Below, piece after piece: positions 3,135 through 39,554 of a stretch of DNA of 39,789 bases. This DNA comes from Candidatus Aminicenantes bacterium RBG_19FT_COMBO_65_30 (GTDB lineage Bacteria; Acidobacteriota; Aminicenantia; Aminicenantales; Saccharicenantaceae): positions 1 through 39,789 of the forward strand of contig MEYF01000016.1 in the NCBI GenBank assembly GCA_001775755.1. The letters are read 5' to 3'. Positions within the stretch are counted from its first letter, which is position 1; each line of letters begins with the position of its first letter. The notes under the pieces are model-generated. The model saw only the letters and a program-made list of their open reading frames with translations. It had not been told where the DNA came from and searched no databases. The position numbers and the translations under genes were made by a program.

Positions 3135-3572
3135 ATGAACCAAAAAAAGCACACCCATGGCTTTAGTCTTATCGAGGTCCTGGTCGGCATTTTCCTGGTC
3201 GCCGTGGCCGTCCTCGGCCTGGCCGAGCTCTTCCTGCTCTCGGTCGCCAATAACCAGCAGGCCGACCGCGTCGCCAACGCGACCTTTCTGGCCCAGCAGC
3301 AGATCGACTGGCTGCGCGGCTTCACCCTGGATGAGCTGAACGTGTACGCCGGAACAACCCTGCAGCAGCGGGACGAGATCATCGATCTCAATTGGGACGG
3401 GACGAACGATTTTAGGCGGATCACCGTATTCGCGGCCGCGGCCGACACGTTCCAGGTCAGCATCCACGTCTTCTCCGCCGAGAAAATCAGCATTGCGAGC
3501 CCGTCCGTGCTTCTCGCGGACCCGGTCCGATACCGGCCGCGGGCCATGATCACGACGATCATCACGCGATGA
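3135..3572 (+). CDS. PilV-like minor prepilin
   Basis: A small prepilin (145 residues) with the cleavage motif HG|FSLIEVLVGIFL and a hydrophobic helix continuing to about residue 35. The body, with TFLAQQQIDWLRG after the helix, fits the PilV/GspI group. The ATG at 3135 follows the upstream TGA (3131-3133) by one base, so translation is probably coupled. An in-frame ATG at 3111 would only add eight polar residues inside the preceding gene. Position between the GspH/FimT-like and PilW-like genes matches the classical minor-pilin order and supports the name. Confidence 0.82.
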   Translation: MNQKKHTHGFSLIEVLVGIFLVAVAVLGLAELFLLSVANNQQADRVANATFLAQQQIDWLRGFTLDELNVYAGTTLQQRDEIIDLNWDGTNDFRRITVFAAAADTFQVSIHVFSAEKISIASPSVLLADPVRYRPRAMITTIITR

Positions 3573-5295: not shown

Positions 5296-8200
5296 ATGAC
5301 ACACAAAGGCTTGAAGCGCCAAGGGAGCCTTTATGTCCTCGCCCCGCTCTGCGTGGTGATCGCTGCGGCGATCGTCGTGCCGCGACTCTGGCCGCAACAG
5401 AGCTGCACGGAGTACACGAGGGCCTTCGGGGAGAACTTCAATACCCTCACTTTCAAGGACGCCGCGAACTCGTCCGTGGCCGGATGGAGCGAAGATATTA
5501 GGGGGCCGATCACCCTGCCCCGCCTGGGGGCCAATTTCGCCGTGGCCTCGCCCGGCAGCATGGGCGCCCGAATTTACGCCTGCGCGGCGGGCGACTTCAC
5601 AGGAGACGGCTATCCGGACCTCATCGGGCTCGACATCGGCGGAGAGTACCCGGTCACGGGATCCAATCCTTGGTCCGATCTCGTGCTCATCCGCAACCTC
5701 TACCAGACGAACGGCGAGGCCAATCCTTTTCAGGTCGACCCGGCGACCTCCTATGATCAGTTTTATACCCATACCGGTCCGGCCTCCATAACGGTCGGCG
5801 ACTACAACGGCGACGGCCTGCTCGATTTCTTCTTCATGAGGGATTCGGACGACGATTTCACATACGACAACTTTCGGGCATCAATGTACATCAACACGGG
5901 GACGGCGTTCGTCCCGGATTTCCGGCCCTACAACGTCTCGCCGAGTCTCGACTTCACCGCCGCCTTCCAGGCGGCCGGGATTTACATCAATTGGGCGGCC
6001 GACCATCTGACGTCCGTGGACATCGACAAGGACGGAGACGTCGATATCCTGGCCATCAGCCAGGACAGGATCTTCCTCATCAGGAACCCCGGCCCCGCCA
6101 ATTTCACCGTCGGCCAATTCTCAATCGGCGAGCTGGCCTATGACGCCCGGACGGGATTCACCGTCGGCCGCGGCGGCTCGTGCATTTCGGCGGCGGACTT
6201 CGACAACGACGGCGACTACGACATCGTCGGCGGCACGGTCAACGACATCGACTACCTCGTTTATTACGAGAACGACGGGTTGGGCCAATTCACCCGCAAG
6301 GAGCTGGCCATCCCCAATCCCTCGTGCACGGGCTCGGTCGGCGTTTTGGGCAAGGATTTCACCAACGACGGCTGGCCCGATATCTTCGTGACCACGGACG
6401 CCTGGAACGCCGGCAACCAGGCTCACATGTGGTTCCTGAGAAACCGCGGCCTCGTCGACGGCCAGGTCGACTGGCTGTTCAAGTGCCTCAACGGCTGCAA
6501 TCCGATCATCCCCCCGAGCTATGACGTCGACATGAGCACGGCCCTCGACTACGACAACGACGGCGACCTGGATGTCGTCATCGCCGACGCCAACCATTCG
6601 GGGGATTACTACCGGATCGAGAACGAGCTGGCCTCGGTCTTTGAGCTCTACGGCCAGGGGCAATCGCTGAACGTCGGCGCGGGCTTCCTCGACTCCCGCC
6701 TCCACGCCGTCACCCGCGTCCGCGTCAGCTCGATCCGCCAGGGCGTCCTTCACGGTTCGAGCGCCGGCCTGACCGTCGCCCTGTACTTCTCCAACAACGG
6801 CGGTAAGAACTGGGAGTTTTACCAGCGATTCGAAGCTGCGGCGATCGCCAACAGGACGGACCTCCCCTGGTACGACTTCAAACAGTTCGGAGCCGACCTC
6901 CGCTGGCGGGCCGTCCTGACCGCGGAGGAAGACCCGATGCCCGACTTTGAGCATGCCTCGTTCGAGACGCCCTATATCGACGAGCTCGATCTCGAGTTCA
7001 TCTACATCGACCGGCGCGAATACTCCCGCGCTTCTGCGGCGGCGACCATCGTCACCAGTGCCGGGACCCCCAAGAAGCTTGTCATCGGCTCTTCGTTCAT
7101 CTTCCCGGGCTGGGAAGGCCAACTCCGGGCCTATGACGTATCCGCCGTCTCCTTCGCCGCCGGCACGACATCGGCACTTCAGACGATCACCACTTCGGAC
7201 CTCGACGCCGCGCAGGGACGGACCCTGGTCGTAGGCGCCGAGATCTTCTGGGACGCCGGGCAGATGCTCAACGACCGTGGCTCCGATTCGCGGACGATCT
7301 ACACGGCCATTCGGGCGGGCGGCACCCTGGCCAATCCGTTGGTTCGGACCGACTTCATCCGGGCCAACGTCGGGAATCCGGCCACCGTCGGGACGCTGGC
7401 CTGGTTCCTCCAGGACGTCAACAACGACAACGCCGGCCTCATCGACTTCGTCCGGGGCAAGGACCGCTACTGGAAGATGGGCGACGTCAATCACTCGACC
7501 CCCGTCGTCGTCGGCCCGCCGGCGGAAGACCCCGTGCTCATGGGAACGGGGTACGGCGAGTTCCAGCAGACCTACGCCGCCCGCCAGAAGGTCCTCTACC
7601 TCGGAGCCAACGACGGCATGCTCCACTGCTTCGACGCCTCCACGGGCGAGGAGCTCTGGGGCTTCATCCCCTACAACCTCCTGCCCAAGCTGAAAAACAT
7701 GTACCAGGTCGATGCCGGGAACAATGCCCGCTACTATGCCCACGACGTCTACGTCGACGGCACGCCCTCAGTCGCCGACGTCCAAATAAACGGGGCCTGG
7801 AAGACGGTCCTTGTCTGCGGCCAGGGGCCGGGCAGCGGCAGCACGCTGGCCGGGGGCCTCAACTACTACTGGGCCCTCGACGTCACCGACCCGACCAACC
7901 CCCGGCCTCTCTGGGAGATTTCCCATACGTACAGAAGCGGCAATACGACCTATCGGAGCATGGGCGAGACCTGGTCGACTCCGGCCATCGGCAAGATCAA
8001 CGACCACGGGACGGCCCGCTGGGTGGCCTTCATGGGCTCCGGCTACGACAACGACCCGGCCGCGGACGTCGCCGGCACATATTTCTACGTCGTTCAGATC
8101 GACAAGGGATCGCTTCTCGACAGCCAATTGTTCCTCCAGACCGTGCAGATCGGCCAGGAGGACACCATGAGCTTCACCGGCGCCAGGCAACCGTACCGTT

Positions 8201-9027: not shown

Positions 9028-9140
9028 GGATCATGCGCCCGCTCAAAGGACGGGGGCGGCGGGCGGAAACGTGCCGCCGCTCCGCGTTTGCCAGGAGCGG
9101 GATTTGCCGCCGCCGGGAAAGCGGAAAAGAGGAGGCGCGT

Positions 9141-9169
9141 TTGACACGTGGGGGACAAGAGAGGATAAT
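9141..9169 (+). promoter_or_regulatory. Sigma-70 promoter, near-consensus
   Basis: TTGACA (9141-9146), a 17-nt spacer and GATAAT (9164-9169) match the consensus at 11 of 12 positions. Transcription would start near 9176, leaving about 9 nt of leader to the ATG at 9185. This separates the next gene from the pilus operon. The preceding GC-rich gap (9028-9140) has inverted GC stretches but no T-run. Confidence 0.7.
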
Positions 9170-9184
9170 AATTGGGGGTTTGTC

Positions 9185-9760
9185 ATGAAGAAAGCGTTGA
9201 TACTTCTGGCCGTTATAGGGCTTAGCGCCTCCCTTGGGGCCCAGAGCGTTGCCGAGCTGGCCAAGCGCGAGAAAGCCCGCCGGGAGGCCCTCCGGGGCCG
9301 CCATGCCGTCGTCATCAAGAACGCGGATCTTCTCCGCGTCCAGAAAGCCCCCGCGGTCGAAGTCACCAATCCCGACGAGGCCGTCGGCGAAGCCGCCCTG
9401 GACGAAGCTCAGGATGTGCAGCCGGCGACCGCGGCCCGGCGGATCACTCCCCGTGTCTCGGCCGACGGACCCACGATCATGGGGGAGGGCGAGTCCGTCG
9501 ACCTGTCCTCTTCCGAAAAGACTCTCGACGCCCAGCTCAAAGCGGCGACCGACCTCGTCGACCTCCTGACGACCAAGATGAACGCCCTCCGCCAGCAGTA
9601 TGAATACCAGGATGCCATGGTCCCCGGCTACGTCATCCAGCAACAGATCGACGAAACCAACCAGCGGCTTTTGAAAGCCCAGGCCCAGCAGGCCCGGATC
9701 CAAGCGGAGTTCGACAAAAGGGGCGCCGGGAAGAAGGACCCCGGATCTCCCGGCCGCTAG
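9185..9760 (+). CDS. Small secreted coiled-coil protein, unknown function
   Basis: I do not recognise a family. The product (191 residues) begins with a clear signal peptide, MKKALILLAVIGLSASLGAQ, then a charged helix (AELAKREKARREALRG). A low-complexity acidic middle follows, and then a predicted coiled coil at about 115-180 rich in Gln, Ala and charged residues (QQIDETNQRLLKAQAQQAR). This looks like a small periplasmic or outer-membrane-associated helical protein. An in-frame ATG 114 nt upstream is rejected because it would bury the signal peptide behind 38 arginine-rich residues and overlap the promoter. GGGGG precedes the chosen start. It has its own promoter. The 3' end meets the opposite-strand gmhA end with a 4-nt overlap. 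Confidence 0.75.
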   Translation: MKKALILLAVIGLSASLGAQSVAELAKREKARREALRGRHAVVIKNADLLRVQKAPAVEVTNPDEAVGEAALDEAQDVQPATAARRITPRVSADGPTIMGEGESVDLSSSEKTLDAQLKAATDLVDLLTTKMNALRQQYEYQDAMVPGYVIQQQIDETNQRLLKAQAQQARIQAEFDKRGAGKKDPGSPGR

Positions 9761-10344
9761 ACCCGAGCCTCCAACTCTCCCGCCAGAAGATGCAGGATGA
9801 AGAGGTGCGCCTCCTGGATTCTCGGCGTCGAGCGGGAAGGCACGTCGAGAAGGTAGTCCGTAAGCGGGGCGACGTCCCCTCCCCCCTCGCCGGTCAAAGC
9901 GATCGTCACGAGCCCCTGCGTTCGGGCCGCTTTCAGCGCCTCAAGGACGTTCGGCGACTTGCCGCTCGTCGTCAGGGCGAAAGCCACGTCCCCGGATTTT
10001 CCCAGGGCCTCGACCTGCCGGCTGAAGAGGTGATCAAAGCCTCTGTCGTTGCCGATGGCCGTCAGGCAGGACGTGTCCGTCGTCAAGGCGATGGCCGGAA
10101 GGGGCGGCTTCTCCCGCCGCGAAAGGCCGTTGACGAGTTCCGCGGCAAAGTGCTGGGCTTCGGCGGCGCTTCCCCCGTTCCCGAAGATGAGGACCATGCC
10201 CCCGGCCCGGACGCTCGTGGCAATGGCTATGGCGGCGGCGCTAAAAACGCCCGACCGGGTCTCTAAAAAGCGGCGCAGGACGTCGTGCAGCTCCGCGGCC
10301 GCTTCCCACGCTTCGGCGTCAGTGCCGGAATTCTTATTTCTCAA
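9757..10344 (-). CDS. gmhA: Phosphoheptose isomerase (sedoheptulose 7-phosphate isomerase), SIS domain
   Basis: A 195-residue SIS-domain protein, the usual GmhA length. FGNGGSAAEAQHFAAELV (about 54-71) is the GmhA substrate-binding signature. LTTSGKSPNVLEALKAA is the second phosphosugar loop, and the C-terminal QEAH carries the catalytic histidine motif. It converts sedoheptulose 7-phosphate to D-glycero-D-manno-heptose 7-phosphate, the first step to ADP-heptose for lipopolysaccharide or S-layer glycans. The start is TTG with GGGAGG six nt upstream. The first 11 nt overlap the end of plsC, so the two are almost certainly co-transcribed and coupled. The gene for the next step (hldE) is not in the window. 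Confidence 0.9.
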   Translation of the reverse strand: MRNKNSGTDAEAWEAAAELHDVLRRFLETRSGVFSAAAIAIATSVRAGGMVLIFGNGGSAAEAQHFAAELVNGLSRREKPPLPAIALTTDTSCLTAIGNDRGFDHLFSRQVEALGKSGDVAFALTTSGKSPNVLEALKAARTQGLVTIALTGEGGGDVAPLTDYLLDVPSRSTPRIQEAHLFILHLLAGELEARV

Positions 10345-11994: not shown

Positions 11995-13071
11995 ATGACC
12001 CGCGCGAAAGTCGCCGTTCTCAAAACCTCCCCGGATTCCGTCCGGACCGATTATCGACGTCTCATGGAGGTGGCGGAGTGGCGTCGCTTCCTGCCCCCGG
12101 ATCGGGACACCCTCATCAAGCTCAACCTGTCCTGGACGAAGTATTTCCCGGCCTGCTCGAGCGAACCCTGGCAGGTGGAAGGGGTCGTGAAGACCCTCCT
12201 CGACGGCGGTTTCCCAAAAGACAGGCTCTTCCCCGTCGAGAACAAGACGGTCGTGACGAATCCCGTGAAGGGCTGCCGGAACAATCGCTGGCTGCCCGTC
12301 CTCGAAAAAAGCGGCCTGCCGTTCATTCCCTTGCCGGGAGTCGAGTGGACGGTCTATCCCTTCCGGAGCAAACTCCTCAAGCTCAACGACATCTTCCCCG
12401 AAGGCTTGCAGATCCCCAGGATGTTCATCGGGAAAAACGTGCTCCACCTGCCGACGGTCAAAACCCACGGCCACTCGACCACCACGGGCGCCGTGAAGAA
12501 CGCCTTCGGCGGTCTTTTAAAGGAAGTCCGCCACTATGCCCACAAATACATCCATGAGGTCTTGGTGGATCTCTTGCTCATGCAAAAAGAGATCCATCCG
12601 AGCCTGTTCTGCGTCATGGACGGAACGGTCTGCGGAAACGGCGCCGGGCCCCGGACGATGCGTCCGGAAATCGAGAACATCATCCTGGCGAGCGGAGATT
12701 CCGTGGCGATCGACTCGATCGCCGCGAAGATCATGGGCTTCGATCCGCTGACGATCCCCTATCTCCGCATGGCTCACGACATGGGGCTGGGGACGGCCGA
12801 TCCCCGGGAGATCGAAATCGCGGGCGAGGACATCGCGGCGATGAATTTCGGCTTCAAAACCAAGCGGAGTTTCGTCATCTGGGGCGATCAGATGATCCGC
12901 AAGGGTTTCCTGCGGCGCCTGGAAAAGCTCCTTCTTCATTCCCCGCTCGTCGTCTGGGCGCCCATCGCCTCGAACGTCTATCACGATCTCCTCTGGTATC
13001 CGACGATCGGGAAAAGGCGCATCCGGGCCTTCATGAAGACGGATTGGGGACGTCTTTGGAAGACATATTGA
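11995..13071 (+). CDS. DUF362 domain protein
   Basis: A 358-residue soluble protein of the DUF362 type. Hallmarks are LIKLNLSW near the N-terminus, LHLPTVKTHGHSTTTGAVKNAFGGLL (His and Lys-rich loop, about 152-177), and the C-terminal VMDGTVCGNGAGP followed by DSVAIDSIAAKIMGFDP. Many DUF362 proteins carry a ferredoxin-like Cys cluster; none is present here. Function of the family is not settled. The start 4 nt after the UbiA-family gene indicates co-transcription, so it may act in the same lipid-linked glycan pathway. That link is inference from position. A second DUF362 gene lies at 22.8 kb. Confidence 0.85.
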   Translation: MTRAKVAVLKTSPDSVRTDYRRLMEVAEWRRFLPPDRDTLIKLNLSWTKYFPACSSEPWQVEGVVKTLLDGGFPKDRLFPVENKTVVTNPVKGCRNNRWLPVLEKSGLPFIPLPGVEWTVYPFRSKLLKLNDIFPEGLQIPRMFIGKNVLHLPTVKTHGHSTTTGAVKNAFGGLLKEVRHYAHKYIHEVLVDLLLMQKEIHPSLFCVMDGTVCGNGAGPRTMRPEIENIILASGDSVAIDSIAAKIMGFDPLTIPYLRMAHDMGLGTADPREIEIAGEDIAAMNFGFKTKRSFVIWGDQMIRKGFLRRLEKLLLHSPLVVWAPIASNVYHDLLWYPTIGKRRIRAFMKTDWGRLWKTY

Positions 13072-16810: not shown

Positions 16811-18283
16811 TCAATAGGCCCGGTACTTCCGGAGATCATAAATCAACATTTTCGGTTCGCTCAAATATATTCCCGTCCTGGCCCTGGCCATTTTGAGGGC
16901 TCGGAGGATATTTTTGTTATACCGGTGGAACGCCGTCATCATGATCTTCTCGATCTCCTTGAATTTATCCTGCGTCATGGTCTCAACCTGACGCACGGGC
17001 CGACGCTTATAGTATTGATCGGGAGGAATTTCGAAAAATTCTTCATAGGACATTAAGGGCTTGATCAAACCGAGTCCCACGCCCTCATCGAACATCTCTG
17101 TTCCCGGATAGGGTTGGTAAGTCCCCAGATAGGCAAAATCAGGCTTCAGTTCCCTCATAAAAGAAAGCGTTTCATGCATATCCGCTTCGTTTTCTCCGGG
17201 CGCGCCGATCATAAAATAACCCGTCCAGTGGATGCCCACCCGCCGAATTGTCTCCGCTGCGCGAAGATACTCATCGATCGTTATCTGCTTCTTCATTTTC
17301 TCCAGCATCCTCGGAGAGCCCGATTCGACCCCGATTTTAATGAAATTGCATCCGGCTCTTTTCATGAGTTTGAGCAGTTCTTCATTTATGAGGTTGGCCC
17401 GTCCGTTGCATTCCCAATGGATTCTGAGATCGCCGGCCAGCAATTTCTCGCAATATTCGATGATACGGTCCTTATGGACAATAAAAGTGTCGTCCTTAAT
17501 AGTGAACTGGACGGTTCCATACTCGGCCTTGATCTGCCGAATTTCTTCCAGGACATGATCTACGGACCGATAACGAGGACGCCGCGTTTCTGTGGCACAG
17601 AAAGCGCATCGGTAGGGACAACCCCGGGTCGTCATGATAAGGCCCAAGTCTTCGGACGTGTACTTTTTATTATTGAGGAGCAGCTGACGGTCCGGAAAAG
17701 GAATGGCGTCCAGGTTCGCAACCGAGTCCGCAACCGCCGCTTTCGTCTCTGACCCTTTGGCCAAGACGCCCGGTATTCCCTGCGGCTTGGTCTCCCCGCG
17801 GCCCAACCGCGCGATAAGCTCGGCGACCGCGTTTTCCCCCTCTCCCCTGACCACGAAATCAACGGCCGGTGCGATGTCCAGGACTTCCCCATACCTGGAA
17901 TGAATGTGAGGGCCTCCCATGATAATTCGTATGCCGGGATCGACCTGCTTGCAGATTTCGGACACATAAAAAGCGGACGCGCAAAAATCGGTATAGACCT
18001 GAATCCCCACGATGTCGGGTCTAAGATCACTCACCCGTTTCCGGACTTCTTGCCATATCGGATGCGACGGGTTCTTAAAAGAGGAGAGGTAACCATCGTA
18101 TTTTTCAAAGACCCGAGAAATGTCCAGGTCCGATGGGACGCTGTTGTAATCCGCGTCGTAGACCCTGACGTCATGCCCATCTTTCTTTAGGACAGTGCCC
18201 AAGGACAGAAGTCCGTAGGGAAAATACCGGCTGTAATAGCCGAGGAAGCGGTAAAAGGGGGGTTGGACCAGCAATATTCTCAT
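16811..18283 (-). CDS. B12-binding radical SAM protein
   Basis: A 490-residue class B radical SAM enzyme. Residues 1 to about 165 form a cobalamin-binding Rossmann domain (ILLVQPPF, then DIVGIQVYTDF, IIMGGPHIHSRYGEVL and GEGE). The radical SAM barrel follows with the 4Fe-4S motif CPYRCAFC (Cys 222, 226, 229). The C-terminal region (about 420-490) is basic and less conserved. Such enzymes methylate or rearrange unactivated carbons in lipids, hopanoids, sugars and antibiotics; the substrate cannot be read from sequence. Placement 7 nt after a GT2 gene and before a GT-C gene suggests modification of a glycolipid or its lipid carrier. Confidence 0.85.
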   Translation of the reverse strand: MRILLVQPPFYRFLGYYSRYFPYGLLSLGTVLKKDGHDVRVYDADYNSVPSDLDISRVFEKYDGYLSSFKNPSHPIWQEVRKRVSDLRPDIVGIQVYTDFCASAFYVSEICKQVDPGIRIIMGGPHIHSRYGEVLDIAPAVDFVVRGEGENAVAELIARLGRGETKPQGIPGVLAKGSETKAAVADSVANLDAIPFPDRQLLLNNKKYTSEDLGLIMTTRGCPYRCAFCATETRRPRYRSVDHVLEEIRQIKAEYGTVQFTIKDDTFIVHKDRIIEYCEKLLAGDLRIHWECNGRANLINEELLKLMKRAGCNFIKIGVESGSPRMLEKMKKQITIDEYLRAAETIRRVGIHWTGYFMIGAPGENEADMHETLSFMRELKPDFAYLGTYQPYPGTEMFDEGVGLGLIKPLMSYEEFFEIPPDQYYKRRPVRQVETMTQDKFKEIEKIMMTAFHRYNKNILRALKMARARTGIYLSEPKMLIYDLRKYRAY

Positions 18284-30599: not shown

Positions 30600-32327
30600 T
30601 CATTCGTCCCGGACGGTCTCCCGCAGGACTTCTTCGACCGAAGTGACGCCGTTCTTGATCTTGACGAGGCCGCTCCGGCGCAGCGTCAGCATGCCCTTCT
30701 CGATGGCCTTCCTCTTGATCTCCCGGGATTGGGCCCGGGTCAGGATCATGGTCCGGATGTCGTCGTCGATCTTCATGACCTCGAAGAGGGCCGTCCGGCC
30801 CTTGTATCCGGTCCTGTTGCAGGTGTCGCAGCCGCCGGGCTTCATGATCTGGAGTCCCTTGAGCTCGCTCTTCAGGTAGCCCATCTCGAGCAGGGCGGCC
30901 TCGGGCAGGGCGTGGGGCTGGGAGCACTTCTTGCAGAGCCGCCGGACGAGCCGCTGGGCGACGACGAGGATGAGCGAGTCGGCGATGAGGAAGGGCTCGA
31001 CGTTCATGTTGACCATGCGGGTGATGGAGCTCGCGGCGTCGTTCGTGTGGATGGTGGAGAAGACCAGGTGGCCCGTCAGGGCGGCCTTGATGGCGATGTC
31101 GACGGTCTCTTGGTCGCGCATCTCGCCGACGAGCATGATATCCGGGTCCTGTCGAAGGAAGCTCCGCAGGCAGATGGCGAAGGTCAGGCCGATCTCTTCC
31201 TTGACCTGGACCTGGTTGATGTTCGGGATGTTGAATTCGACCGGGTCCTCGGCGGTCATGATGTTCATGTCCGGCGAGTTGATTGTCGAGATGGCCGAGT
31301 AGAGCGTGTTCGTCTTGCCGCTCCCCGTCGGCCCGGTGACCAGGACGATGCCCCACGGCTTGTGGATGGCGTCATCGAAGACGGCGAGCGGTTCCTCCTC
31401 GAATCCGAGCTGGGTCAGGTCGAGCTTGAGCATCTCCTTGTCGAGGATACGGGCGACGATCTTCTCCCCCCATAGCGTGGGCATGGAGGAGAGGCGCATA
31501 TCGATTTCCTTCTTCTTGCCGTTGTCGAGGCGGAGGCGCATCTTGATCCGGCCGTCCTGGGGCAGGCGCTTCTCGGCGATGTCCATGTTGGCCAGGATCT
31601 TGACCCGGGAGATGACCGGGCTGCGGTACTTCAGCGGCAGGTTGACGATCTCGTAGAGGTCGCCGTCCATCCGGTAGCGGACGCGGAAGCTCGTCTCGTA
31701 GGGCTCGAAGTGTACATCGCTCGCGCCCCGCTTGATGGCGTCGATGAAGGTCTGGTTGACGAGCTTGATGATCGGCGCCTCTTCGGCCTCGCCGTCCGTG
31801 TCGGTGAGGACGGTGGATTCCTTCTCGTCCTCGATGATGTTGACGCGGCCGTCGTCGGCCAGGGCGATGTCCTCGATGATCTTCTTGACCCGGATGGCGT
31901 CGGCCGTGCCGTAGTATTTGTTGATGGCGTTGACGACCCCCGTCTCCGAGGCGATGACGGGCTGGATCGACAGCCCCGTCCGGAAGCGGATATCCTCGAT
32001 GATCTCGAGATCGGTCGGGTCGACCATGGCCAGGGTCAGGAAGGACCGGATCCGATGGATCGGCATGACCATATGCTTTTTGGCCACGTCGACCGGGATG
32101 AGGCTGATGACTTCGGGGTAGACGTCGAACTGGTCGAGGTCGATATAAGGATAACCGAGCTGGCGGCTGAGGGCCTGGGCGATGTCCTCCTCTGTCAGAT
32201 AGCCGAGCTGGACGAGCGAGGTCCCGACGGGCAGGCTGTTCTTCTTTTGGAAATCTAGGGCGGACTTCAGCTGGTCGACGGAAAGGATCTTTTCCCTTAA
32301 GAGAAGCTCGCCCAGGTTGGATGCCAT
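30600..32327 (-). CDS. pilB: Pilus extension ATPase
   Basis: A 575-residue ATPase with an N-terminal MshEN domain (about 1-150, starting LGELLLREKILSVDQLKSAL), which in relatives binds cyclic di-GMP. Then come Walker A GPTGSGKT (332-339), LVGEMRDQET as Walker B, STIHTND as the His box, and a zinc site from two CxxC pairs (Cys 465/468 and 500/503). It drives pilin polymerisation. It opens the five-gene operon. The ATG has no Shine-Dalgarno, and a near-consensus promoter ends only 13 nt upstream, so the message may be almost leaderless. The start is firm because the MshEN domain begins at residue 4. Confidence 0.94.
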   Translation of the reverse strand: MASNLGELLLREKILSVDQLKSALDFQKKNSLPVGTSLVQLGYLTEEDIAQALSRQLGYPYIDLDQFDVYPEVISLIPVDVAKKHMVMPIHRIRSFLTLAMVDPTDLEIIEDIRFRTGLSIQPVIASETGVVNAINKYYGTADAIRVKKIIEDIALADDGRVNIIEDEKESTVLTDTDGEAEEAPIIKLVNQTFIDAIKRGASDVHFEPYETSFRVRYRMDGDLYEIVNLPLKYRSPVISRVKILANMDIAEKRLPQDGRIKMRLRLDNGKKKEIDMRLSSMPTLWGEKIVARILDKEMLKLDLTQLGFEEEPLAVFDDAIHKPWGIVLVTGPTGSGKTNTLYSAISTINSPDMNIMTAEDPVEFNIPNINQVQVKEEIGLTFAICLRSFLRQDPDIMLVGEMRDQETVDIAIKAALTGHLVFSTIHTNDAASSITRMVNMNVEPFLIADSLILVVAQRLVRRLCKKCSQPHALPEAALLEMGYLKSELKGLQIMKPGGCDTCNRTGYKGRTALFEVMKIDDDIRTMILTRAQSREIKRKAIEKGMLTLRRSGLVKIKNGVTSVEEVLRETVRDE

Positions 32328-32340
32328 TTTTTATGCCGTC

Positions 32341-32369
32341 ATCATATTATTTTAGACAATTCCTGTCAA
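32341..32369 (-). promoter_or_regulatory. Sigma-70 promoter of pilB-T-C-S-R
   Basis: On the minus strand TTGACA (32364-32369), a 17-nt spacer and TATGAT (32341-32346) match 11 of 12 consensus bases. The expected start near 32334 leaves about 6-7 nt to the pilB ATG. Confidence 0.8.
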
Positions 32370-32653
32370 TTATCGATTCCCTCGTTGGCTCTTCATTAAA
32401 AGACGGCCGCGGGGCCGATTTTTCTCTTATACCTAAGATGCTCAAGATTGCCAAGGCATTGCTCCGATGGCCCCTATTCTCTCTTAACGACAAATTGCGT
32501 CAATCACCCGGGGTGAGCATTGCCTGGGTGAATTTAGCAAAAATTGTCCCATCTCGAGGGGTGAGGAGAATCATCGGAGGGGGTCAAACCTGCGAAATAT
32601 CTGAATGGTTTTGGAAAGTGAAAAAGTCCATGTTTGCCCCCTCCTATTAATGA
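32370..32653. other. Intergenic region between pilB promoter and tRNA fragment
   Basis: No gene is supported here. The stretch is AT-richer than its surroundings. It contains a TCACCC-G-GGGTGA dyad (32504-32516) and two more GGGTGA copies at 32526 and 32558, of unknown meaning. Confidence 0.5.
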
Positions 32654-32703
32654 TGGCGCGCCTGGAGGGACTCGAACCCCCGACCCGCTGCTTAGAAGGC
32701 AGC
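32654..32703 (-). pseudogene. 3' half of a tRNA-Arg(UCU) gene, copy A
   Basis: Read on the minus strand this holds an intact anticodon arm (GCTGC, loop CTTCTAA with anticodon TCT, GCAGC), a 5-nt variable loop, a T arm with TTCGAGT, the acceptor 3' strand CAGGCGC, discriminator G and an encoded CCA. No D arm or 5' acceptor strand precedes it: identity to a tRNA stops at the anticodon stem. A 3' half breaking at the anticodon is the classic trace left by an integrase using a tRNA attachment site. Confidence 0.85.
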
Positions 32704-32780
32704 TGGGCGGCCTCCTTAATTGATGCGATATGCATGGCTTACGACTTCGCTTCGGGAAGGTGTGCTCAGAATTGTGCACA
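32664..32780 (-). repeat. 117-nt element terminus, copy A
   Basis: Two blocks are shared exactly with copy C: 43 nt of tRNA-derived core (32664-32706) and 25 nt at 32756-32780. Between them are 49 nt that align without gaps to copy C at about half of positions. Confidence 0.8.
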
Positions 32781-32910: not shown

Positions 32911-33057
32911 ATGTCGAATAGAAGACCCATCTGGCGAAGGCTCTTGGGCGCGTTGGGCTGGATGCTTCTCCTGCTGGCGGTCACGGCTGCCGTGTGGCGG
33001 ATCTTCATTTTTCCATGGGCCTCCAATTGGGGTGCGACCAAGGAGGAGCGGTTGTGA
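32911..33057 (+). CDS. Short membrane-anchor ORF, N-terminal part of a split SRPBCC protein
   Basis: A 48-residue frame: basic MSNRRPIWRRLLG, one hydrophobic helix (WMLLLLAVTAAVW), then IFPWASNWGATKEERL and TGA. The last stretch resembles the conserved WGAT-EE segment that normally runs straight into PLPGDE in SRPBCC relatives I recall. PLPGDE is present just downstream but in another frame. So this is either the broken front of one gene or a separate small anchor translated in tandem with the next ORF. An AGGAGG inside its end serves the following GTG start. Confidence 0.55.
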   Translation: MSNRRPIWRRLLGALGWMLLLLAVTAAVWRIFIFPWASNWGATKEERL

Positions 33058-33842
33058 AGCCCCTCCCGGGTGATGAGTTCGGGGCTCCGTCGGCTCCGCA
33101 GCACACCTGCGGCCTGACGATCCATGCGCCGGCGGACGAGGTCTGGAAATGGCTGGTCCAGATCGGCCAGGACCGGGGAGGATTCTACAGCTACACGTTC
33201 CTGGAGAACCTGGTAGGCGCTGATATCCACAACACAAACGAGATCAGGCCGGAATGGCAGGAATTGAAGGTCGGCGACACCGTCAGGCTGGGTCGGGACG
33301 AGGGCGTGATCAAGCTCACGGTCCTTGCCGTCGAGCCAGGCCGGGCCCTGATGCTGACATACTGGGGCGCCTTTGTGCTCGAGCCCGCGCCCGACGGCAG
33401 GAGCTGTCGCTTCCTCATTCGCAGCCGCAGCGTGGGCAAGCCGCTCGTCCGGTTCATCATGTCCGTTGTTCTTGATCCCCTTCACTTCCTGATGCAGCGC
33501 CGCATGACGTTGGGGATCAAGGAACTGGCCGAGGCGAAGACTCCGGCGGAGCGCCCCCTGATTCCCACAACTTCTGATTATGTCTGGTTCTTTTCTATCC
33601 TGAGGTCCGGCCTTCTTATCCTCATCATGCTGTTTGCCCGGCGCTGGCCGGGCCGGCTGCTGACAGCGGTCTGCCTGTCAGCCCTTCTGACCTTTGTGCT
33701 GTATCGGTTTCCGCCGGTTCCACTCACTGGCATTGCCCTGGCCGTCTTTACCCTGCTAATCCTTATATGGCGCGTCTGGCCGTCTCGTCTTCCCAGCCCT
33801 CGGCCACAAAATAATGGATATGAGGATGTGAATCGTTTTTAG
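33054..33842 (+). CDS. SRPBCC-domain membrane protein (C-terminal part of the split gene)
   Basis: A 262-residue frame starting at GTG, which overlaps the previous stop as GTGA and has AGGAGG 7 nt upstream. Residues 1 to about 165 form an SRPBCC/polyketide-cyclase-like ligand-binding domain: KPLPGDE, CGLTIHAPADEVWKWLVQIGQDRGGFYSY, LKVGDTV and YWGAFVLEP. Three hydrophobic helices follow (about 180-245). In related proteins the domain follows an N-terminal helix in one chain; here that helix lies in the other frame. Ligand unknown; hydrophobic small molecules are usual for the fold. It is 38 nt before the FAD oxidoreductase gene and probably co-transcribed. Confidence 0.72.
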   Translation: MKPLPGDEFGAPSAPQHTCGLTIHAPADEVWKWLVQIGQDRGGFYSYTFLENLVGADIHNTNEIRPEWQELKVGDTVRLGRDEGVIKLTVLAVEPGRALMLTYWGAFVLEPAPDGRSCRFLIRSRSVGKPLVRFIMSVVLDPLHFLMQRRMTLGIKELAEAKTPAERPLIPTTSDYVWFFSILRSGLLILIMLFARRWPGRLLTAVCLSALLTFVLYRFPPVPLTGIALAVFTLLILIWRVWPSRLPSPRPQNNGYEDVNRF

Positions 33843-33880: not shown

Positions 33881-35359
33881 ATGAAATCGATCGTTATCAT
33901 CGGATCGGGCATGGGCGGGCTCACCGCCGGCAACCTGCTAGCGAAGAAAGGCCATAAGGTCACGATGTTCGAGGCCCAGAAAACGCCGGGAGGCTACACC
34001 GGCGGCTTCCGGCACGAGGGATTCTATTTCGAAAGCGGGACGCTCGCCTTCGAATCTTCCGCCCAGGTTTTCCGGGCCATGAAGGAGATCGGCGTCTTCG
34101 ACAAGATTGAGTTCGCGCGCCAGAAGATGCATATCAATGCGGGGAAGATGAACGGCGTCTGTTCGAGCTATCGAGAATTCAAGACCCTGGCCTATTGTTC
34201 GTACCCCGGCGAAAAGGAGAAGCTCGACCGCTATTTCGGCGAGGCCGACAAGATGATCCGGGCCATGACCGGGATGATGGCGCCTCACGGCGTCGCCGGA
34301 TTCCTGGCCTTTCCATTCCATCTCGCCGGGTTTATGTACTTGTTTCGCAAGTACTCGAAAATCACCGTGACGGACTTCGCCGCGGCATGTTTCGGCGAGG
34401 GCTCGGCGCTGTACGCCCATTTCAAGGGTTTCGGCTATCCGGACATGTCGGCGGCGCTCATCGGGCCGGCCCTGGCCGCCTTTCTTGACGACTATTGGAC
34501 AGTCAAGAAGGGCTTTCAGTCCTGGGCGGACGCCCTGGCCGACAACTTCCGGGCCCTGGGCGGTGAGCTGAGGCTCGGGACGCCGGTCGACAAGATCGTG
34601 ACAAAGCACCGGGCCGCCGCGGGCGTCGAAGCCCGGGGTGAATTCTTTCCCGCGGATTGGGTCATTTCCGCCGCGGACTATAAGAAGACTTTCCTGGCCT
34701 GGCTGGATGATCGCTCGCTCCTGCCCGCGGAGTTCGTCAAAAAGGTTTCGGAAACCGCCGTATCCGAAGGAATTGTCACGGCCTACCTCGGACTGAGCCT
34801 GCCGCCGGCCGAGCTCGGGAAATGGCTCAAGGCGCCGTATGGCAGTTACCGCGATCCGTCTTCGGTTGCCGACTTCCGCCTTGGAGCCGATGACCCTGAC
34901 TACTTCAAGAAAGCCGGGGCGGGCCTCTATTCTCCTTCGCTTCACGATGCGAGTCTCGCTCCAGAGGGGAAGTCGAGCCTCATGATCCAGGCCATAGCGC
35001 CCACGCATTGGATGAACAACTGGGGCGGCGGCGACCGGCAGAAGTACCGGGAGCTCAAGGAAGGAGTCAAGCGGGAACTCGTCGCCAAGGCCGCGGCCGT
35101 TATCCCGGGCCTGGAGGAGCGCATAGAATATTCCGACTTGGCGACGCCGCTCACGTACGAGCGGTTCACGGCGAATACCGATGGCGCGACTTCGGCTTGG
35201 AGCTGGAACCCTCATAACAAGTTCTACGGGAGTCCTCTGGGCGTCCACATCGGCACGCCTATCAAGAACCTGCTTATCGGATCCTGTTGGTCGGCCCAGA
35301 TCGGGGGCGTGCCGAGCGCTATCAACGCCGCCCGCCGCTGCGCCAGGAGGATCGGCTAG
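33881..35359 (+). CDS. CrtI/phytoene-desaturase-like FAD oxidoreductase
   Basis: A 492-residue flavoprotein. The N-terminal dinucleotide-binding motif IIGSGMGGLTAGNLLAKKG is followed by the acidic FEAQ and GGYTGGF, as in carotenoid desaturases, isomerases and retinol saturases. The C-terminal FAD closure NLLIGSCWSAQIGGVPSAINAAR is intact. No signal peptide. It should desaturate, saturate or isomerise a polyunsaturated lipid or isoprenoid; the substrate is unknown. AAAAGGAG lies just upstream. It shares a module with the SRPBCC gene between tRNA fragments A and B. Confidence 0.83.
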   Translation: MKSIVIIGSGMGGLTAGNLLAKKGHKVTMFEAQKTPGGYTGGFRHEGFYFESGTLAFESSAQVFRAMKEIGVFDKIEFARQKMHINAGKMNGVCSSYREFKTLAYCSYPGEKEKLDRYFGEADKMIRAMTGMMAPHGVAGFLAFPFHLAGFMYLFRKYSKITVTDFAAACFGEGSALYAHFKGFGYPDMSAALIGPALAAFLDDYWTVKKGFQSWADALADNFRALGGELRLGTPVDKIVTKHRAAAGVEARGEFFPADWVISAADYKKTFLAWLDDRSLLPAEFVKKVSETAVSEGIVTAYLGLSLPPAELGKWLKAPYGSYRDPSSVADFRLGADDPDYFKKAGAGLYSPSLHDASLAPEGKSSLMIQAIAPTHWMNNWGGGDRQKYRELKEGVKRELVAKAAAVIPGLEERIEYSDLATPLTYERFTANTDGATSAWSWNPHNKFYGSPLGVHIGTPIKNLLIGSCWSAQIGGVPSAINAARRCARRIG

Positions 35360-35412: not shown

Positions 35413-35435
35413 CGCGCCTGGAGGGACTCGAACCC
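35413..35435 (-). pseudogene. tRNA-Arg fragment, copy B (T arm and acceptor)
   Basis: These 23 nt are identical to 32657-32679 of copy A: acceptor 3' strand, T-stem 3' side, T loop and part of its 5' side, without CCA. Beyond them similarity ends. CAGGCGC at 35470-35476, in the last codons of the cupin gene, is complementary to the acceptor strand, so a 63-nt internally shortened tRNA shape can be drawn. Confidence 0.65.
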
Positions 35436-35468: not shown

Positions 35469-36272
35469 TCAGGCGCCTTCCCCGAACATCAGGAGGATGA
35501 ACTCTGCCGGCTCATCGAACGGATTCCAGGCCTCATGAGCGGTGCCCGGCGGGACGAACATCATCTGTCCCGGCTCCAGAATCTTTTCGACGCCGCCGAC
35601 CTTCGACATGGCCCGGCCGCGGAGACCGATGATTATGGTCGGGAACGGATTGACCTGATCCCTCGGGTCGGCGTTGACGCGCTGGCCTTTCCGGATCTGT
35701 CCCCAGGCAGAGCGGAGTCCCTTTTGGTAATACAACACGACCATCGTAGCGCCGTGGACTTCGCGGCCGACCGCCGGACTGAAGCTTACGGTCTCGGGGA
35801 AGCCGCGGGTCCAGAAATGGAAGGTCAAGGGGAGAAAGATAGCCAAGAAGTCCTCACCGGGCGTGTAGCCGGGCATGAACGTAATGTCCATGGGCGCCGG
35901 GTCTGACATCCTGGCTCGCCCCATCGCGGTGAGCGCGTTCAGCTCTCCGCGGTCGATCTTGTTAAGGGTCTTCAGGTCGGTCGTATAGACAGCGCCCGGC
36001 TCCGGCGGGAGGCCTCGTCGGAGATCGACTTCGAACCGGCCAGCGGCGTCTTTCCGGCCCGTCACGACGACATGCCATTCAGGTTCGGCTGAGCCTGGGA
36101 CCGAGACCCCGAAAATACATCGAGTATTCGCTGCGGGGTCATTCCGGAAATCCTCCACAAAGGACCTCAGGATCTGTCCGACGGGGCGGGAGGCCGTCGG
36201 TTGAGCCGGAAAGGACTGGACGACAAACACGGAAAAGACCGAAAGGGCGATCCAGCGTTGGTTGTTGCGCAT
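35469..36272 (-). CDS. Secreted SCP2-like/cupin two-domain protein
   Basis: A 267-residue protein with a signal peptide (RWIALSVFSVFVVQSFPAQP). Residues about 35-140 read like an SCP2 sterol-carrier domain (WHVVVTGRKDAAGRFEVDL, then LNKIDRGELNALTAMGRARM). The C-terminal 100 residues end in a cupin core, EPGQMMFVPPGTAHEAWNPF. The second half may bind metal through the His, but the first cupin motif is weak. The start at 36272 has GGAGG 7 nt upstream; a longer frame to 36377 lacks this and would bury the signal peptide. The gene sits alone between tRNA fragments B and C. Confidence 0.68.
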   Translation of the reverse strand: MRNNQRWIALSVFSVFVVQSFPAQPTASRPVGQILRSFVEDFRNDPAANTRCIFGVSVPGSAEPEWHVVVTGRKDAAGRFEVDLRRGLPPEPGAVYTTDLKTLNKIDRGELNALTAMGRARMSDPAPMDITFMPGYTPGEDFLAIFLPLTFHFWTRGFPETVSFSPAVGREVHGATMVVLYYQKGLRSAWGQIRKGQRVNADPRDQVNPFPTIIIGLRGRAMSKVGGVEKILEPGQMMFVPPGTAHEAWNPFDEPAEFILLMFGEGA

Positions 36273-36411
36273 TAGGAAACCTCCATCACTGCGGCTATGA
36301 CTTACCTGACGAGTCTTGATAAGGAAATGTTCCCGCTGGGCGCTCTTCCGTTGCCCTTTATTGCGGGTGGTGGCCAAAGGCGGATTTCTCAGCGAATAAG
36401 GGAGCTCTCCA

Positions 36412-36451
36412 GGAGGGACTCGAACCCCCGACCCGCTGCTTAGAAGGCAGC
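36412..36451 (-). pseudogene. tRNA-Arg(UCU) fragment, copy C (anticodon and T arms)
   Basis: The anticodon arm with TCT, variable loop and T arm are identical to copy A. The acceptor strand diverges (CTGGAGA instead of CAGGCGC) and no CCA is encoded, so it cannot be functional. Confidence 0.8.
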
Positions 36452-36528
36452 TGGTTCGTCTTTCTAATTAATCTAGGATGAGCGGCTTACGCGCTCAACT
36501 CTAGAAGGTGTGCTCAGAATTGTGCACA
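36412..36528 (-). repeat. 117-nt element terminus, copy C
   Basis: 43-nt core (36412-36454) and 25-nt distal block (36504-36528), both identical to copy A and with the same 49-nt spacing. Confidence 0.8.
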
Positions 36529-36610: not shown

Positions 36611-38686
36611 TCAACGGACCCCGTCCTTTCGGTCGCCCCCCTCGCCCGTCGTTTTTTTAACGTTCTCTTCCAAGTCCAAGAGACCGAGTTTCATTCTGGC
36701 GTAGGAGTGCTCGGGATTCAATTGGAGGCATTTTTTGTAATATTTCTTAGCTTCCTCCACATGCCCCGATCTCTCGAGCCAGGATGCCAGGTCATAGCAG
36801 ACGTCGATGGCCCTCGGCAATTCGTTGTGAACGAACGTCAGATAACCGATATAGTCGTCGTCTGTTTTCTTATTGATCGCCATCCAGCCATCGAGATCGT
36901 CGTAGAGAAGGTTTTTCATATTGAAGCCGTACTTATCATAATTCAGCCTGATCCGATCATAGCTGCTTTTCAAGCCTTCTAAGCCGCTTGATCGGTAGGC
37001 ATCGGCCATTTGGGCCGTAAATTCCGGCCTCATGTTCTTATACGAATCATAGTCGAAGATCCGCTCGAAGACGGGATCCCGATTTTCCCTGAAATCAGCC
37101 GATGTCAGCCTGACAAAGAAATGGGGTTCTGTTCCCACGGAAAAATCGAACGGCTGGGCGTCCTGATAATAATCGACGGAGCAGCCGATTTGCAGTTTGC
37201 TGTGAGGGAGATTGAACCGCCGAATGGCCCCATATTGGTTCGGTTTGCTGCAGGTCGGCTCGCCGAATAAAGTGGCGTTCGTGTACCGAACGATCTCCGA
37301 CACAAAATGCTGGGCCGCGGAGACCGTGGCCCTTCCGATAATGATGAACAGACGATCCGGACGGTCCAAGCCGGGCCTGTTGAGGATCCCTTTAACGAGA
37401 GGCCATTCGATATGATTTCCTCCGGCATTCCGCCTGACGTCGACGATCAGTCTTTCGGCCCTCCGTTCATCGAACGCTTCAAACATGCGCTTGCAGAACT
37501 TATCGAACGGCTCGTTCTTTTTATCAACGAACGCATTGATCTGAAGATAGATCGCCGTCCGTTCAGGCAAGTATTCATACCAATATGAATCGTACGCCTG
37601 TTTGAGATAGAGAGGAGCGGGATTTTTGCTTTCCTCATTCATGAATACCGGAGCGGACATTCCGACATCCGTTTGGATCGCGTAATCAAGTTCCCGACCT
37701 TGTTCATCCGCTAAAAGCAGATGAATGTCATCGGACGAATGGCTCGCTCCGATATATTGAAGCAGTGGGCCGTCATTCATGAAGAATCGCGGCAAGTATT
37801 CGAGAACCGTCATCTCATTATCGGCGGCAACAAAGCGGGAGAGCCTGTGCATGGCCTCTTCGGCCGTCAAGCTCCCGATCTTGATGACTTTTTTTCCACA
37901 CGCCCCGCCATATTTTTTCGAGATCGTTCTGATGTAGAGGCCGTCCTCGAATGGATAGAACCCGACAGGATAGTATCTATAGGTCTTTTTGATCTCCTCG
38001 AGTCCCGGCGAAGATGACACCGGCGTACAGAACGTATGGAGGTTCTTGATATGAGCGATCAGCTCATGGATACCGATGATCATTTCATTGGTGGTAGAAC
38101 TGGATATCTTATTTCGCAACTTCTCTGCATAGCCATAAAAAGCTTCTCGGGACACATTGCCGTATAAATTCGGGTGCATGATCTCGAGACGCTTGATCAA
38201 ATACTCCAAGTCCTCGTTCCATTCTTTCACAGAGATAGTGCTCGGCTGCCCCGATTCGGATCGGGCGACAGTATTTTGGGCGGGTGGTCCTTGTCCCTCG
38301 CGCTTTTTCCCAAGGAGCTCGATGCCTTGAGTTTTCATCATACATCTATCGATCTTGCCGGCCTCATTCCGGAAAAATTCCAGTTCATAAAACTGGCCGG
38401 TGGCCGAAGCGGTGAGTTTGAACTTGAGGGGATTCCCCTGCACCTGAAGCATCTCCTCAGGGCTTTCCCCTGGAGAGGTGCCAAAGAGCTTTCCGGCTTG
38501 TTCGAAGACGTTGACGGTCAGAGCTCCGCCCTGGTATTCGAAATCATAGCCCCCGGCGATTTCGGCGAGGACCTTCTTTACGTCGGCAGGCATGGTCCCG
38601 GCCGACGATTGGGCCGTTTGGGCCTGCCCCCATGAACTTGCCGTCAAAATCCCGGTCGCGACAATCAGAACGACAAGCTTTTTCAC
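36611..38686 (-). CDS. Secreted S41-like peptidase with C-terminal TPR
   Basis: A 691-residue secreted protein. GTG start with GGAGGA 7 nt upstream, then signal peptide KKLVVLIVATGILTASSWGQ. Residues about 30-130 form a small beta domain. The S41 protease-like core (about 155-530) has LIVDVRRNAGGN and GRATVSAAQHFVSEI, whose serine matches the catalytic serine of C-terminal processing peptidases. No PDZ domain is apparent. The last 60 residues form a TPR hairpin (HVEEAKKYYKKCLQLNPEHSYA). Its target is unknown. The gene is clearly AT-richer than the pilus operons and lies directly to the right of tRNA fragment C, so it looks acquired. Confidence 0.75.
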   Translation of the reverse strand: MKKLVVLIVATGILTASSWGQAQTAQSSAGTMPADVKKVLAEIAGGYDFEYQGGALTVNVFEQAGKLFGTSPGESPEEMLQVQGNPLKFKLTASATGQFYELEFFRNEAGKIDRCMMKTQGIELLGKKREGQGPPAQNTVARSESGQPSTISVKEWNEDLEYLIKRLEIMHPNLYGNVSREAFYGYAEKLRNKISSSTTNEMIIGIHELIAHIKNLHTFCTPVSSSPGLEEIKKTYRYYPVGFYPFEDGLYIRTISKKYGGACGKKVIKIGSLTAEEAMHRLSRFVAADNEMTVLEYLPRFFMNDGPLLQYIGASHSSDDIHLLLADEQGRELDYAIQTDVGMSAPVFMNEESKNPAPLYLKQAYDSYWYEYLPERTAIYLQINAFVDKKNEPFDKFCKRMFEAFDERRAERLIVDVRRNAGGNHIEWPLVKGILNRPGLDRPDRLFIIIGRATVSAAQHFVSEIVRYTNATLFGEPTCSKPNQYGAIRRFNLPHSKLQIGCSVDYYQDAQPFDFSVGTEPHFFVRLTSADFRENRDPVFERIFDYDSYKNMRPEFTAQMADAYRSSGLEGLKSSYDRIRLNYDKYGFNMKNLLYDDLDGWMAINKKTDDDYIGYLTFVHNELPRAIDVCYDLASWLERSGHVEEAKKYYKKCLQLNPEHSYARMKLGLLDLEENVKKTTGEGGDRKDGVR

Positions 38687-38883
38687 AGTCGTCTCCTCCA
38701 CCCTCTTGGCCTACATGAAAAAGGACGAAACCGGTCCTAAAAGGTTGCCTGCTCCCGGACCTTCCCCTCCTCGGCGCATCCGCGGATATCGTCGAATGAA
38801 GCTTAAACGGCCGTTTTCTTAAGGATCCGAGCCTCGGACCTTCGGCAGCGTCATTTTTGACGTTCGAGGTCGGCCGCGAGACC

Positions 38884-38918: not shown

Positions 38919-39554
38919 ATGAGCGGAAGAAAGAAAGAGCGGCTCCCGTTCCTCGCCTTCGCGCTGTTCGTCCTCGCGGCCGGGGCGGCCTTCGCCCATC
39001 AGCCCCGCCTCGTCGACGACCGGCCTTCGATCATCGTCCGCGACCCGGAGATCTCCCAAGCTTTCTACGCCCGCTTGGCCGGGGATCCCCAGACGTACCA
39101 CATCGGGAGCGATGCCCCGCTGCGGCTCTACATCAACCTCCTCGTCCCCGACATCCAGGGCATCGAGACCGACTACGAAGCCGCCGTCTTCCGTGAGACG
39201 GACGGGAAGAAGGAGCTCCTGGCCCGCCTCGACGGGAAGACGTACGCCTGGCGCCCGTTCTACGAGCCCTTCGGCGGCGACCGCTACCTGCTCGGGCCCG
39301 AATACGACGAGCAGGTCCCCGCGGGCGCCTACACCGTCGTCGTCACGAGCCCCGACAATACCGGCAAGTACGTCCTGGCCGTGGGCAAGATCGAGAAGTT
39401 CCCGCCGAAGGAGATGGCCCGGACGATCGTCGCCCTGCCGAAGCTCAAGCGTTACTTCGGCAAGTCGCCGTGGACGGCCTTCTTCAACCTGTCGGGCGCG
39501 TTCCTGCTGGTCGCGATCGGGGCTGTCGCAGGCCTGGCGGCGCTTTTTTTCTGA
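38919..39554 (+). CDS. Exported membrane-anchored protein, unknown function
   Basis: I do not recognise a named family. The 211-residue product has a signal peptide (FLAFALFVLAAGAAFA|HQ). A beta-rich extracytoplasmic domain spans about 27-165 (LRLYINLLVPDIQGI, YEPFGGDRYLLGPEYDEQVPAGAYTVVV, TGKYVLAVGKIEKF). One C-terminal membrane helix (about 190-210) closes the chain, so the domain faces the periplasm. It resembles carbohydrate-binding or Ig-like accessory folds only in outline. GC-rich composition is back to that of the core genes, unlike the protease gene on its left. Confidence 0.75.
   Translation: MSGRKKERLPFLAFALFVLAAGAAFAHQPRLVDDRPSIIVRDPEISQAFYARLAGDPQTYHIGSDAPLRLYINLLVPDIQGIETDYEAAVFRETDGKKELLARLDGKTYAWRPFYEPFGGDRYLLGPEYDEQVPAGAYTVVVTSPDNTGKYVLAVGKIEKFPPKEMARTIVALPKLKRYFGKSPWTAFFNLSGAFLLVAIGAVAGLAALFF

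Follow-up and report, generated by a model that had tools for sequence, protein, structure and literature searches.

The locus and its repeat units

The window (the whole stretch of DNA that was analysed, 39789 nt) is an entire contig of the source genome, G000. It holds two copies, A and C, of a 117-nt unit, a further tRNA fragment (B) and a series of putative cargo genes, as follows.

31096..32566, no strand assigned: chromosomal flank on the pilB side (89.6% identity over 1472 nt to L031 of genome G011)
32654..32706, minus: copy A, 3' half of tRNA-Arg(TCT) from the anticodon stem to the encoded CCA, putative attR core (matches the tRNA-Arg of relatives over 52 nt)
32707..32755, minus: copy A, 49-nt spacer from arm block to core
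32756..32780, minus: copy A, arm block with repeats TGTGCACA (32773-32780) and TGAGCACA (32761-32768)
32994..33842, plus: putative cargo ORF, start uncertain, without Pfam match
33881..35359, plus: putative cargo gene for an FAD-dependent amine-oxidase-like protein
35413..35435, minus: fragment B, limited to the T arm and acceptor end of tRNA-Arg (23/23 nt identity)
35469..36377, minus: putative cargo gene with a C-terminal cupin domain
36385..36408, minus: probable left-end remnant of an older element below C (88% over 69 nt to the tRNA/left-end junction of G004)
36409..36454, minus: copy C, displaced 3' half of tRNA-Arg(TCT)
36455..36503, minus: copy C, 49-nt spacer
36504..36528, minus: copy C, arm block with repeats at 36521-36528 and 36509-36516
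36611..38701, minus: putative cargo gene of the element above C, for a peptidase S41-like protein with TPR
38919..39554, plus: putative cargo ORF without Pfam match, in an element that runs beyond the contig end

On the minus strand both units read in the order arm block, 49-nt spacer and displaced 3' half of tRNA-Arg(TCT), the arm block being a direct-repeat pair of the form TGWGCACA-ATTC-TGAGCACA. The repeats of copy A are 12 nt apart, start to start, and 64 nt separate the end of its arms from the anticodon. Copies A (32664-32780) and C (36412-36528), which share one orientation and lie 3748 nt apart on the contig, match at 43 of 43 core positions, at 25 of 49 spacer positions when compared without gaps and at all 25 positions of the arm blocks (32756-32780 and 36504-36528), just as the initial annotation had described in reporting identical blocks at a fixed 49-nt spacing. 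Its view of the spacer as free and of fixed length stands for the length but not wholly for the freedom, since identity is above chance and several columns are invariant. Offset zero alone gives a good alignment (25 matches, against 10-16 at offsets of -4 to +4) and 25 matches were attained by 2 of 20,000 shuffles; the two spacers are thus diverged but homologous, non-random and weakly constrained. The 25-mer itself, with up to three mismatches allowed, was expected 0.00 times in shuffled windows and observed twice.

The tRNA match of copy A extends past the boundary first drawn for it to 32654, through the CCA end. Against the Rfam tRNA model this core scores 22.8, under the cut-off of 29, and according to ARAGORN the window contains no complete tRNA. 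As the window is the entire contig, the tRNA-Arg expected to cap the array lies unassembled. The remnant at 36385..36408 resembles the sequence directly 3' of tRNA-Arg in G004 (CTCCCTTATTCGCTGAGAAA); no left arms are recognisable there, and the arms found in the window are right arms only. Reading of the sequence upstream of fragment B revealed no arms, which suggests that B may be the scar of another insertion within the A-C interval, made at a different crossover or by a different integrase, or else a truncated copy.

All array ORFs tested encode cargo: peptidases, cupin, amine oxidase, TPR and Ser/Thr-kinase proteins. The amine-oxidase gene of the window is present in 8 of the 60 genomes searched (source genome counted), in keeping with mobile cargo. 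A homologue in G050 was rejected as element cargo, as neither arms nor a tRNA adjoin it. As a separate observation, a GGCCGGGCTGA(A/C)GGGCA stretch, the end of ...RKRLAGLKGS*, lies about 50-80 nt before the right arms in L129, L131, L132 and L036 and recurs even where the cassette cargo differs; it may be the tail of an ancestral kinase-TPR gene.

Related genomes and a second tRNA gene

The comparison set comprised 99 related genomes, 94 of them in the order. Outside the source genome, the 117-nt unit occurs in G004, G007, G041 and G052, giving six full tRNA-Arg units from three families overall. The 25-nt block (up to three mismatches) was found in 4 of the 99 genomes and invariably inside the 117-nt unit, so the common, uncoupled repeat that had been named as a possible objection was not seen. 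A sequence-only profile built from the six units and scanned over the 94 genomes revealed further units on 3' halves of tRNA-Thr(CGT) in G000 (contig C104), G036, G050 and G007, and these right ends bring in a fourth family. The initial annotation had proposed such a scan to test whether hits always lie next to tRNA-Arg(TCT) or cargo genes; they are not confined to tRNA-Arg(TCT), as the same arms also serve tRNA-Thr(CGT). The anticodon arms of the two tRNAs share GCTG..T..TAA.CAGC.

On contig C104, a tRNA-Thr gene (5503-5578) is followed by right ends at 8658, 9553 and 11218, a tandem array that places three copies elsewhere in the source genome. The left ends of the G004 elements (Arg and Thr) and of those in G036 and G050 are alike, and three more repeats follow the tRNA of G004 on its downstream side. 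The profile also returned a diverged Arg copy in G062, with a single arm repeat and a 69-nt gap, and one G007 copy is without arms. In G004, a tRNA-Asp(GTC) 3' half lies soon after the left arms in both elements, that at tRNA-Arg and that at tRNA-Thr (L033:4693-4740, plus strand; L158 ~3320-3375, minus strand), possibly marking a third target or what remains of a composite element.

The spacing between arms and tRNA is close to constant. The gap between the end of the second arm repeat and the anticodon is 64 nt in ten right ends, five of Arg type (A, C, G004, G007 and G041) and five of Thr type (T1 and T3 of G000, G036 and both G050 copies), 63 nt in G052 and 65 nt in the Thr copy of G007 and in T2 of G000. 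The second repeat of T2 is degenerate; the 63-65 range holds in 12 of 12 intact right ends. On the other side, the distance from the anticodon to the left arms is 136 nt (G004 Arg), 136 nt (G004 Thr) and 137 nt (G036 Thr), so that arm-type repeats flank the core on both sides at a set distance and on two tRNA targets. Tyrosine integrases bind both arm and core sites (PMC2951348), and equal spacing across unrelated spacers and two tRNA targets is what such an enzyme would need. As judged from sequence, the arm/core spacing is the attP geometry of a tyrosine integrase.

Since a profile might favour the set spacing, the 94 genomes were also searched with a pattern blind to the distance from a tRNA, which gave 20 arm pairs, 13 at tRNA-Arg or tRNA-Thr and 7 elsewhere, against 3 for a reversed-pattern control. 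An exact scan with the arm variant of the window returned no match in 84,980 species genomes or IMG/VR. A degenerate 20-nt arm pair matched eight contigs in the species genomes. Four belong to Aminicenantes/Acidobacteriota MAGs (apparently G004, G007, G041 and G052), all with the tRNA core; the other four, outside Aminicenantes (L086, L088, L090 and L091), lie in coding or simple-repeat sequence and look like chance. The last of these, from Candidatus Corynebacterium gallistercoris, contains tandem 12-nt units, TGAGCACAATTC (L091:4107-4150).

Empty and filled sites

In nearly all relatives read, an intact tRNA-Arg follows tRNA-Pro(TGG). Empty sites were found in G011 and G005, in which pilB follows tRNA-Arg within ~0.3 kb, and also in families f4 and f5; in G037 and G042, members of other families, pilB follows within ~0.5-0.7 kb. 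At filled sites the same distance is 6.7 kb (G002), 8.2 kb (G004), 13.6 kb (G010) and 27 kb (G003). The unit lies downstream of tRNA-Arg on one contig in G004, G007 and G052, and the G004 site is complete, with the tRNA at L033 4457-4531 and attR at 12313-12463, that is, an intact target and a displaced fragment.

The counterpart of the flank at 31096..32566 lies directly downstream of the intact tRNA-Arg in G011, which makes copy A the outer end of the array; the attR of G004 joins this same flank. About 90 nt adjoining A do not align to the G011 empty site, leaving the A junction short of base-perfect. The tRNA of the empty site encodes CCA, the tRNA of the filled G004 site ends GCGCGCTC, and the distal G004 attR, which carries CCA, reads GCGCGCCA. 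Such a shift of CCA to the outer attR would be expected of an element that brings a new tail for the tRNA.

At the tRNA-Arg site of G003 (L093:706-2520, 18170-18187) lies a prophage-like region that encodes a large serine recombinase as well as a short PF00589 protein; an 18-nt tRNA tail repeat delimits the region. According to PMC4383910, tyrosine recombinases were the only ones known to target tDNAs.

Integrase candidates and a minimal cassette

No PF00589 gene was found near the arrays in the eight carriers. The PF00589 match on the array contig of G007 is more than 250 kb from the array, every PF00589 protein classified in G000, G004 and G007 scored as XerC/XerD, and a PF00589 fragment near tRNA-Arg in G020 was set aside because it is on the far side of pilB and not part of an island. 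The array ORFs showed no noticeable integrase remnant, and a search within the order for an autonomous relative (ICE or IME) with matching att sites found none. Every carrier genome is a draft with contig breaks, and the source genome is ~86% complete; neither its tRNA-Arg nor the distal end of its array is assembled, so an integrase gene could lie there.

The smallest cassette, in G050 (L132 ~9030-10030), is ~1.0 kb long and contains both arm sets together with a single gene, for a 141-aa protein. This cassette and the Thr element of G036 (left arms at L131 14340, right arms at 7951) keep attL and attR without integration or transfer genes, as determined by family search for integrases and by reading of ORFs and Pfam matches for transfer genes.

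The exact Thr-type arm pair occurs once in IMG/VR, in IMGVR_UViG_3300031910_000041. This viral contig (L160:13494-13709) carries six TGAGCACA-type repeats in two clusters of three around ~167 nt, 0.2-0.4 kb downstream of a gene for a 366-aa integrase (PF14657 + PF00589). A single exact match might arise by chance in a collection of this size, but the adjoining integrase gene and the additional repeats make such an origin unlikely. No tRNA core was recognised at the viral repeats and the inter-arm distance differs (~167 nt vs ~203 nt in the cassettes), so the resemblance may be convergent. Within the order, all matches to the viral integrase are weak (26-35% identity), and many are of Xer type to judge from their position.

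Origin of the repeat units

It is highly probable, on the evidence of these sequences, that A and C represent attR sites and that each is the trace of its own integration event, in which related elements entered tRNA-Arg(TCT) in the region of the anticodon loop. The earlier proposal that the two are ends of related elements and not chance pieces of tRNA holds. Its suggestion of core-and-arm recombinase sites gains from the arm pair 64 nt from the anticodon, which is conserved in units of several families, from the matching left arms at 136-137 nt, from the empty sites and from the viral attP-like repeats; the case for att sites is strong.

The proposed attP would have, on its right side, a direct arm pair (consensus TGAGCACA, period 11-12), 64 nt, the anticodon and a tRNA 3' half and, on its left, a second arm-repeat set 136-137 nt from the anticodon. 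The enzyme, a tyrosine integrase, would occupy both arms and core, with its crossover in the anticodon loop; we infer both the enzyme class and the crossover position. The element would supply a new tRNA 3' end, the old half being pushed outward with the right arms attached. Because new elements would always enter at the tRNA, older ones would be displaced and an array of direct repeats would grow. One design would also serve tRNA-Thr(CGT).

Three accounts depart from this origin. Local duplication of one stretch, with later divergence of the spacer, would explain the shared orientation and contig and the 3748-nt distance, but the divergence is restricted to the spacer, the flank beyond the arms shows no match (14 of 40 positions), and recurrence of the blocks in other families and on another tRNA contradicts it, so that it is hardly credible. 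We consider it very improbable that the unit is transcribed and conserved as a structured RNA or cryptic tRNA gene. The core does fold as anticodon and T arms, RNAalifold predicts 25 pairs and the Rfam score falls just below the cut-off, yet ARAGORN finds no tRNA, the covariation term is only -0.86 kcal/mol with few two-sided changes, and the spacing is constant across unrelated spacer sequences. Recombination by host XerC/XerD, with the arms as accessory sites, is improbable too: Xer proteins are the sole tyrosine recombinases identified in G000, but the targets are tRNA anticodon arms, and the repeats on both sides of the viral attP-like region, next to a gene whose integrase has an arm-binding domain, favour an enzyme of the arm-binding type.

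The arrays are best read as tandem arrays of integrase-less elements, either mobilised in trans or now relics, and we lean slightly towards an enzyme supplied in trans. Decayed, CIME-like relics, which lost their own integrase by deletion and now stand as fossil arrays, share the att-site reading and differ only over that supply; they are a serious possibility, if short of an even chance. In their favour are the lack of an integrase near any array, the degenerate copies (fragment B, the partial G007 copy, T2 of G000 and G062), a Ser/Thr-kinase gene on C104 of G000 that is split across ORFs (with an N gap) and the fact that CIMEs are a documented outcome (PMC5704250). Against them, arms kept exactly beside spacers that are half different, in four families and on two tRNAs, are more easily explained by continuing use; moreover, a 1.0-kb cassette retains both arm sets and no remnant of an integrase was noticed among the ORFs. 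A wider proposal, that one trans-acting integrase serves an integron-like platform for gene capture, bringing recombinase-less cassettes of one to a few genes to tRNA-Arg(TCT) and tRNA-Thr(CGT) across Aminicenantales, is tentative and rather unlikely.

Comparison with known systems

The grammar of an attachment site (arms, spacing and core) is set here to the base for a lineage that is little known and mostly uncultured, and tRNA scraps become markers that order gene acquisitions. If an enzyme acting in trans does move ~1-kb cassettes into two tRNA genes, genes would be captured without a resident mobility gene, and island finders that require an integrase would overlook such cassettes. A literature search of partial coverage found no report of such a system in Aminicenantes.

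Several described systems share part of this anatomy. The tRNA/tmRNA islands of Islander (PMC4383910) have a regenerated tRNA at one end and a displaced 3' fragment at the other, and include an anticodon-centred attachment class and tandem arrays; Islander requires an integrase gene per island, whereas none was found here and cassettes go down to ~1 kb. Tycheposons (PMC10872708, PMC11389934) are likewise cargo-carrying elements at tRNA genes, but they have a tyrosine recombinase and span 4-200 kb, and no recombinase was found in the present cassettes. The additive fGI-2 islands of Methylophilaceae (PMC10872708) also carry fragments of a tRNA tail that recur behind one tRNA and record one insertion after another; the feature described there is a 20-bp repeat of the tRNA tail, whereas arm sites and spacing are defined here. 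CALIN integron arrays (PMC11389934) also consist of small recombinase-less cassettes that can be mobilised in trans, which in our case is a reading, but their site type is another one: judged from site anatomy, the present sites combine a tRNA core with arm repeats. CIMEs (cis-mobilizable elements) and tandem accretion (PMC5704250) likewise involve elements that retain attL and attR, lack integration and transfer genes and pile up where a target gene ends. Islands at tRNA genes with att sites only are already known as a kind; CIMEs derive from a known ICE or IME, whereas the search of the order gave no parent for the present elements, and a single arm set serves two tRNA targets here.
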